Assembly (NCBI GenBank): GCA_033762255.1
Contig: JANRLT010000065.1
Location: 62,001 to 126,000 of the forward strand
Length of the DNA: 64,000 nucleotides
Source: Pirellulales bacterium
Lineage (GTDB): Bacteria; Planctomycetota; Planctomycetia; Pirellulales; JALHPA01
Direction of reading: 5' to 3'
Part shown: positions 6,570-8,210 of the stretch, one piece after another
Layout: each line of letters opens with the position of its first letter
Position numbering within the stretch: the stretch's first letter is position 1
Made by a program: the position numbers and the translations under genes
Notes under the pieces: model-generated
What the model was told of the DNA's origin: nothing
Seen by the model: the letters and a program-made list of their open reading frames with translations, nothing else
Databases searched by the model: none

Positions 6570-8210
6570 ATGGCCTCGATATACAAGCGAACCCAGGACA
6601 AATGCAAAAAGCGCGCTTTTTGGTATATCGGTTACAAGGATCATCATGGTAAGCGTCGAACCATTAAAGGATTTACGGATCGTGCTGAAACCGAACGATT
6701 AGCGGTTCGCATGGAGGAGGAAGCGAGTATGATCAAGAATGGCTTAAAGCAGTTGCCTGATGCCGAGCGATATTGCTCTGTCGCTGATTTCGTAAAGCGA
6801 TTTCGTCAACAATTGATTGACCGCGATGTCAGTGAATTCCATCGTGACCAAACAATTAGCCGAATTACGCGAATCGTTACCGAATGCGACTTTCACACGC
6901 TCCAAGAAATTCAAGGGGATAAAATTGAACGCTGTCTGTCAGATTGGAGACAAGCCGGAATGAGCAAGCAGACAAGCAATCATTATCTCAAAGCCATGAG
7001 GCAATTTAGCTTATGGCTGGTCAAAACCAAACGCTTGGTAATCGACTATACGGCAAATATTCCATTGCTGAATGTACGCACCGATCGCCGTCACGACCGT
7101 CGGGCTTTATCCCAGTCTGAATTTGAACGATTAGTAGTAGCTGCGGAAACTGGCCCTAGCGTCGTGGGTATTGCTGGTCCCGATCGTGCCATGATGTACC
7201 TACTAGCGGCGGCAACAGGATTACGACGCGGTGAGATTGGCAGCCTCACCATTGAATCGTTTTCAATTGAGGCAACGCCAGCCACGGTTACAGTCAATGC
7301 GAGTTATAGCAAACACCGCAAGTCAGACACCCAGGTGCTTCCTACTGAACTCGTTGAGTATCTGCTTAAATGGCTCCAGCAGAAGAAGCCTCAGAAGCAA
7401 GAACTCCTGTTTCCCGTATCAAAGCAATCTGGCGGACTTGATCGCCGTACATCGGAAATGATGCAAAAGGATTTAGCTCATGCACGTGCTTCCTGGATAA
7501 AAGAAGCTGTGACATCTGAAGAAAAGATGGAGCGAGAAAAATCGGACTTTTTGAAATACCAAGATCGTGAAGGACGTTTCGCCGATTTTCATGCGACTCG
7601 TCATACGTTTATTACCAACCTTGGTCGTGCAGGCGTTTCTGCCAAGACAACACAAAAACTCGCTCGCCATTCCGACATTCGCTTAACAATGAATGTCTAT
7701 AGTCATACAGACTTGGCGGAAAAGGCAGAAGCAGTGGGAAAGCTTCCGCAGCATTGGAAGCCCACGAATAGCCAAGCCGCGGATTCAAAATCTGTGTCCC
7801 AGTCGGAAGTACCAACAACCGGCTGGGAGTATATTGGGAGTGCGCCAGAAGCTCAAACTGACCAAAATAGACAATCTGTGTCACAAAGACAAAATTGGAG
7901 TCAGCCCAAAGCAGACAGCGAGGGCTCTTCGCAAGTTGTTGCTAGTTCAGCACTTGTCGCCAAGAATTCATTAGAGTCAACAACTGTCGCAACTACACCC
8001 GGAGGGGCTCGAACCCCCAACCCTCGGTTCCGAAGACCGATGCTCTATCCAATTGAGCTACGGGTGCAACTACAAGAAAATTCTTCCTGGGAGCGGGATC
8101 CAGGCGGCCGCAACCGCCGTTTCCCGCTACTCCTGCTCAGTCCTGACAGTGTAACAAATTCGTGGCGGTCCCGCTATTTGGGATTTAATTGCGGGGAAAT
8201 TTCCGGGTGA
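6570..8210 (+). CDS. Tyrosine recombinase (integrase) reading through the tRNA-Arg attachment site
   Basis: A 546-aa phage-type integrase that inserts and excises the element. The N-terminal part has an arm-binding-like region (ASIYKRTQDKCKKRAFW) and a SAM-like core-binding domain at about 75-165. The catalytic domain has the full set: R219 (TGLRRGE), H341 and R344 (HATRH), H367 (ARHSD) and Y377 (NVYSHTD). AGGAG lies about 8 bases before ATG 6570. The catalytic domain ends near residue 390; the rest is Ser/Gln-rich linker. Residues ~475-500 are the antisense translation of tRNA-Arg (GGARTPNPRFRRPMLYPIEL), and the last ~47 residues come from chromosome beyond the tRNA. The C-terminus therefore depends on integration. 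By eye this gene is more AT-rich than the chromosome to its right. Confidence 0.92.
   Translation: MASIYKRTQDKCKKRAFWYIGYKDHHGKRRTIKGFTDRAETERLAVRMEEEASMIKNGLKQLPDAERYCSVADFVKRFRQQLIDRDVSEFHRDQTISRITRIVTECDFHTLQEIQGDKIERCLSDWRQAGMSKQTSNHYLKAMRQFSLWLVKTKRLVIDYTANIPLLNVRTDRRHDRRALSQSEFERLVVAAETGPSVVGIAGPDRAMMYLLAAATGLRRGEIGSLTIESFSIEATPATVTVNASYSKHRKSDTQVLPTELVEYLLKWLQQKKPQKQELLFPVSKQSGGLDRRTSEMMQKDLAHARASWIKEAVTSEEKMEREKSDFLKYQDREGRFADFHATRHTFITNLGRAGVSAKTTQKLARHSDIRLTMNVYSHTDLAEKAEAVGKLPQHWKPTNSQAADSKSVSQSEVPTTGWEYIGSAPEAQTDQNRQSVSQRQNWSQPKADSEGSSQVVASSALVAKNSLESTTVATTPGGARTPNPRFRRPMLYPIELRVQLQENSSWERDPGGRNRRFPLLLLSPDSVTNSWRSRYLGFNCGEISG
7994..8035. other. Probable attachment site (att) in the 3' half of tRNA-Arg
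   Basis: Tyrosine recombinases next to a tRNA normally use its 3' half (anticodon loop to 3' end) as att core. The recombinase catalytic region ends ~260 bp to the left, and typical chromosomal genes begin to the right. The matching direct repeat marking the other end was not seen in 1-7990, so the left boundary is outside the window. The exact crossover length is not determinable here. Confidence 0.5.
7994..8067 (-). tRNA. tRNA-Arg (anticodon UCG)
   Basis: A 74-nt cloverleaf on the minus strand, 5' end at 8067. Acceptor GCACCCG/CGGGTGU, D-arm GCTC...GAGC with loop AATTGGATA, anticodon arm TCGGT-CTTCGGA-ACCGA giving anticodon UCG (reads CGA), T-arm GGGGG-TTCGAGC-CCCTC, discriminator A at 7994. 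CCA is not encoded. The acceptor closes with a G1-U72 wobble, which is unusual and could reflect a base supplied by the integrated element at the 3' end. The gene is embedded in, and antisense to, the integrase reading frame. Confidence 0.93.

Follow-up and report, generated by a model that had tools for sequence, protein, structure and literature searches.

Where does an integrase end when the site at which its island recombines lies inside its own gene? The question is raised by the window analysed here, a stretch of 64,000 nucleotides from a Pirellulales bacterium, in which the integrase reading frame (int; 6570-8210, plus strand) starts with ATG and meets no stop until it has crossed a tRNA-Arg(TCG) gene in antisense and entered host DNA, where it terminates with TGA at 8208-8210 after 546 amino acids. 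The initial annotation had described this frame as open through the tRNA up to that stop codon and had taken residues ~475-546 to be antisense tRNA plus host DNA. The ORF, ARAGORN and Rfam agree with the former, and the latter was confirmed with a finer division, residues 475-500 corresponding to the antisense tRNA and residues 501-546 to host DNA.

The integrase gene contains its own attachment core

The frame of the integrated state matched the Phage_integrase family (PF00589, 72 bits, E 6.5e-20), with a catalytic domain at residues 180-381 (7107-7712, plus strand; Pfam). The catalytic set R219, K248, H341, R344, H367 and Y377 lies entirely before residue 378, the six positions (R-K-H-R-H-Y) are invariant across the alignment of the integrase family, and a fold search with the catalytic part returned XerA, Tn1549 Int and HP1 Int. 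The window integrase is a predicted member of the tyrosine recombinase/phage integrase family. Its catalytic domain is connected to the attachment core by a linker still within the island (7713-7989, plus strand), whose counterpart in locus L175 was predicted to be disordered. The 50-nt core itself (7990-8039) corresponds to integrase residues 474-490 and sits within the ORF at 6570-8210, as in integrases of the Mx8 type. The integration target, tRNA-Arg(TCG), is complete at the window end of the island; ARAGORN placed it at 7993-8068 on the minus strand, and the Rfam match (RF00005, 65.8 bits) spans 7994-8067. The remaining stretch, from the core boundary onward (8040-8207, plus strand), gives the integrase a host-encoded end, composed of the tRNA 5' part and the chromosome, that is not conserved in relatives.

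Directly upstream of int lies a gene for an AlpA-type HTH protein (6359-6559, plus strand; HTH_17 5.5e-13, Phage_AlpA 1.7e-7), a candidate excision factor. The island also encodes a TrwC-type relaxase with a helicase domain (1318-4311, plus strand; TrwC 6.2e-68) and a TrwB/TraD-type coupling protein of uncertain true start (4492-6300, plus strand; TrwB_AAD_bind 2.7e-48), and is predicted to be mobilisable or conjugative. A VWA-domain protein is encoded inside the island at 55-1182, adjoining a 50-nt imperfect tandem repeat at 1-113.

The probable second island end and the computed excision junction

The window holds one island end only, and no direct repeats that could represent a second att site were detected within it. 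A second, partial tRNA copy was located on another contig of the same genome (G000:C42:67429-67478), a displaced fragment of 50 nt identical to 7990-8039. To its left lies metG, on the minus strand, and this side was taken as chromosome; to its right lie a CBASS-like nucleotidyltransferase, a patatin phospholipase and an ArdC-like protein recognised by eye, a combination typical of island cargo. In the locus covering this left end of the island (L007, on C42), the CBASS-like oligonucleotide cyclase and its patatin-type phospholipase effector occupy 9832-11756, directly inside the far attachment site, and are followed by the ArdC-like protein, also assigned by eye, at 12798-13844.

Joining the outer flanks in silico yielded an intact tRNA-Arg(TCG). 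When the inner ends were joined, to mimic excision, the int frame continued without a stop for another 87 codons and encoded a protein of 577 amino acids. The frame is thus kept and the C-terminus is different, as in the Mx8 type, at a junction that is computed and not read from a sequenced circle. The initial annotation had anticipated that excision would join the frame to another C-terminus, and the computed junction bears this out with a tail that is conserved phylum-wide, as described below. Because the core is exact, the tRNA is restored and the cargo is of the island kind, we infer that the two ends, on contigs C42 and C65, belong to one island of at least 80 kb. An empty site was sought in relatives by sigma-factor synteny, and none of the 14 loci examined had tRNA-Arg or metG nearby. 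Circular forms were not found in the plasmids or phages searched, and the IMG/VR matches (L177, L178, L225 and L226) had neither exact end repeats nor an int-tail fusion.

Related integrases read into many different tRNA genes

A homologue search across 294 Planctomycetota genomes gave matches at E <= 1e-25 in 47. Among the 56 distinct relatives with a recognisable nearby tRNA, 51 read into it, 46 in antisense and 5 in sense, covering 14 tRNA types and all three antisense frames (21, 20 and 5 cases), and the type of tRNA targeted changed at least 29 times on the tree. Genomes selected by the tail formed an additional set, which agreed with this pattern and brought in tRNA-Asp, Val and His as well. 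One island, in L161, is integrated at a gene called tRNA-SeC (selenocysteine), around position 10577. Since a single antisense tRNA frame has no stop over 50 nt in about 64% of cases anyway, openness by itself is weak evidence; the observed 51 of 56 against the expected 64% corresponds to P = 4e-6, a value that ignores relatedness among rows that are not fully independent. The openness of int exceeds chance, though not through the tRNA alone, and what sets the family apart from chance is this frequency of read-through together with the in-phase conserved tail at the far island end.

In a minority subgroup (L064, L067, L068, L077 and L080) int stops soon after the catalytic domain, before the tRNA, and no tail was detected at these loci, which form a natural contrast to the tailed family. 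Comparison of homologous C-termini had been suggested in the initial annotation, with stops right after the catalytic domain named as the result that would speak against its reading; such stops were encountered only in this minority subgroup, and beyond the core the comparison revealed a conserved tail.

A conserved tail lies at the opposite island end

When the int frame was projected across the repeated core in 11 read-through islands, both ends of which were located by the tRNA repeat, 8 carried the same C-terminal motif, with the consensus DPDLARVVAAWPxLPEAIRAAILALV followed by a stop, at the island end opposite int. In the other three the motif was truncated or lost (two islands) or a different tail was present (one island); the read-through islands with no recognisable tail are L066, L079 and L083. 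Of 392 Planctomycetota genomes, 94 contained a match to a profile built from the eight tails and that of the window. When 84,980 bacterial and archaeal species were scanned with the closer tail subset A3, the full alignment A2 being too diverse for pattern scans, 46 tail loci were confirmed, all of them in Planctomycetota.

In the 29 islands with int, core and tail on one contig, every upstream tail is on the int strand, and in 27 it is in the int reading phase, the exceptions being L078, where the phase is shifted by one, and L129, where int is degenerate. The eight seed islands are in phase by construction; outside the seed set the phase was kept in 19 of 21 islands (P = 8e-8, an indicative value given related rows such as L119 and L120). 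On the island side, the frame is open for 51-97 codons from core to stop in 25 of 26 islands.

The tails of L132, L136, L150, L165 and L166 form a subfamily with a shared segment like GLEPPxxTPxKTxxxExGGAESGA ahead of the tail; the recognisable tRNA piece is only about 22-26 nt long in L136 and L165, which suggests a shorter core. Near both island ends of L061 (18480 and 8059) there is a 24-nt non-tRNA repeat with internal ATGGTTGCCGG units, possibly integrase arm sites.

Codon-level selection on the tail

In a test that started from the tails, tRNA-like DNA was found at most 330 nt upstream of 85 of 130 distinct tails, as compared with 18 of 2148 pieces drawn at random from these loci. In 81 of those 85 tails no stop interrupts the frame between the tRNA piece and the tail. 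Mismatch by codon position in the tail was 0.51, 0.38 and 0.65, close tail pairs displayed synonymous change above the random-substitution expectation, and the stop fell 16-31 codons after an invariant Trp in 78 of 84 tails. Between core and tail, an in-frame ATG, GTG or TTG is present in 16 of 26 tails and an ATG in 5 of 26. Because conservation follows codon positions, these data indicate that the tail is under codon-level selection and probably translated. The other possibility raised in the initial annotation, a neutral by-product of selecting an open frame across a tRNA, is not supported, given this selection, the int phase and the at least 29 target changes.

About 12 of the 85 tails lie behind a sense-read tRNA (among them those of L074, L095, L140, L154, L196 and L200), a mirror arrangement in which the complete tRNA is on the tail side in several cases.

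A natural in-frame int-core-tail fusion was found in L175 (9494-10663), at the junction of two tandem islands, where the upstream int crosses the core and continues, with no stop, into the tail of the next island. Because the N-terminal part of int is missing, the fused frame counts as a junction rather than as a gene proven to function. In its AlphaFold model, a catalytic domain predicted with confidence is followed by about 120 disordered residues and, at the tail, by a two-helix hairpin (block pLDDT about 68-87). Comparison of the tail with Pfam and NCBIfam gave no family matching more than 2 of 60 members, and those weakly, and the sole PDB sequence match, over 15 residues, was judged spurious. 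The length of the predicted tether suggests that the tail may be a protein-contact module rather than a part of the active site. Tandem islands at one tRNA were also observed in L058, L072, L073, L143 and L168, in which int and the neighbouring tail occupy separate ORFs.

The host-encoded end of the integrated form

On the host side, the window integrase reads 56 codons past the core. Because this is unusually long, the median of its relatives being 6, the host-encoded C-terminus of the window is not conserved and has no special meaning. The host-side stop comes earlier than in the other two frames in 18 of 27 cases (P = 4e-4), which may hint at selection for a clean end of the integrated form; a tRNA sequence bias could be the cause instead.

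Proposed mechanism and alternative explanations

Both island ends, the reading phase, the openness of the frame, the conserved tail and codon-level selection were observed directly in the DNA, and it is very probable, at the DNA level, that attP lies within int and that integration cuts off the conserved tail and adds host residues. In our model, attP would be located in the 3' part of the island's own integrase gene, and in the excised circle the int frame would proceed from the catalytic domain through the disordered linker and then the core, formed by the 3' half of the tRNA in antisense, into the opposite island end, which would encode the short helical tail and then a stop. Integration would break int at the core, with the tail staying at the far island end and the integrated int gaining a random, usually short, host-encoded end. 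The tailed long form would act on attP (attP x attB), for instance through a part in assembling the attP complex, and the tail-less form of the integrated state would have an altered activity that helps to keep the island in place; the AlpA-type factor (6359-6559) would drive excision, which would restore the long form. We regard the case for such a directional role of tail gain and loss as evenly balanced. The explanation as a whole, with attP inside int, a tail lost on integration and different roles for the tailed and tail-less forms, appears likely.

We attach appreciable weight, short of considering it probable, to a plainer reading, in which the tail is the ordinary C-terminus of the free-form integrase and its loss is tolerated with no regulatory role, attP lying within int for compactness or int and attP being inherited or exchanged as one module. 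Host-encoded ends that are random and not conserved, a catalytic domain that is wholly before the core and intact in both forms, and the proposal that archaeal suicidal integrases benefit from a compact int-att module (PMC8371274) are all compatible with it. However, the arrangement has survived the repeated tRNA target changes (at least 29) in all three tRNA frames, the minority subgroup demonstrates that int is able to stop before the tRNA, and the earlier host-side stops (P = 4e-4) are a weak sign that the integrated end matters. It is rather unlikely that the tail is essential to all activity, so that integration switches the enzyme off as in a suicide or near-suicide integrase and excision is helped by the intact integrase of another island or by a re-tailed copy in a tandem array. 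The logic would be that of SSV-type integrases (PMC8371274), and tandem arrays such as L175 can restore a tail to the upstream Int, but the integrated form keeps the whole catalytic domain, unlike that of SSV, the integrated form of Mx8 was reported as not inactivated (PMC6070905), and the gene immediately upstream of int encodes a candidate excision factor.

The far-end motif might also be separate from int, either as the beginning of a small gene of its own or as an attP arm site that acts at the DNA level and is open by accident. The possible start codons in 16 of 26 tails and the expectation of attP arms on both sides of the core leave some room for this, but the ATG in only 5 of 26, the match of phase across the core in 27 of 29 islands, the conservation by codon position rather than at the DNA level and the tight distance of the stop make it highly improbable, and we disfavour it. 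A chance open frame across a tRNA, that is, an annotation artefact meaningless past the catalytic domain, would agree with the ~64% of antisense tRNA frames open over 50 nt and with the unconserved host-encoded end of the window. As a general account it retains hardly any credibility, given the conserved tail in phase with int, the pattern by codon position and the test that started from the tails; it is refuted for the island-side tail and still holds for the host-encoded residues of the window.

Relation to known systems

The closest precedent to our model is the Myxococcus phage Mx8, in which attP is inside int and integration gives int a new 3' end, the integrated Int being described in a review as changed in specificity and not inactivated (PMC6070905). 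The Islander paper notes of the integrases of Mx8 and SSV that they reach across attP (PMC4383910). The likeness lies in the position of attP within the int coding sequence and in the exchange of the C-terminus, and Mx8 Int carries an antisense-tRNA-like peptide, STGLEPVLLGSF, before its own tail, as planctomycete integrases do. Mx8 represents a single phage lineage, whereas the planctomycete arrangement spans a phylum and 14 tRNA types (main set) and has a conserved tail motif. The planctomycete tail profile did not match Mx8 Int, which is only remotely similar in sequence, and assignment to the Mx8 type is by arrangement and not by tail descent. The passage of Mx8 Int from IntP to IntR was reportedly described by Tojo in 1996 and Magrini in 1999.

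In the integration-dependent immunity of BPs-type mycobacteriophages, attP lies in the repressor gene and integration removes a C-terminal degradation tag. There too attP is in a coding gene, a C-terminal segment is lost and the behaviour of the protein changes, but it is the repressor that is cut and not the integrase, and the planctomycete tail resembles a helical hairpin rather than a degradation tag. This class was rejected for the window, where the core is in int and not in a repressor gene. Retroregulation of lambda int by sib acts on mRNA stability; it resembles the planctomycete case in that sequence downstream of int is swapped at attP and int output differs between free and integrated states, and differs from it in that the planctomycete protein itself would be altered. 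SSV-type archaeal integrases also have a recombination site within the integrase gene that is broken by integration (PMC8371274), but in these the N-terminal part is split from the catalytic part, whereas planctomycete int loses its C-terminal tail only. The SSV-type suicidal class was also rejected for the window integrase, its catalytic domain ending at residue 381 and its core starting at 474.

The open-licence literature searched yielded no account of such planctomycete integrases. On the sequence evidence, they appear to form a family of the Mx8 type that extends over the whole phylum and shares a C-terminal module that is conserved and new. Self-disrupting recombinases were considered exclusive to archaea in a recent review of archaeal integrases (PMC8371274), a view against which Mx8 is a little-noticed bacterial case, and an integrase gene cut by its own integration would be common across a whole bacterial phylum. 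Many predicted planctomycete integrases would carry antisense-tRNA and host-encoded ends and miss their true C-terminus, the tails being left as orphan fragments at the far ends of islands, where the tail profile offers a simple far-boundary marker. We propose, tentatively and with somewhat more doubt than conviction, a phylum-wide bacterial integration-state switch in which the presence of the tail sets direction and a tandem neighbour re-tails the upstream Int; such re-tailing could govern the excision of arrays and let islands exchange tails. The conserved module can be deleted or added back, which makes the integrase's knowledge of its integration state directly testable; loss of the tail could let the enzyme tell a free island from an integrated one.
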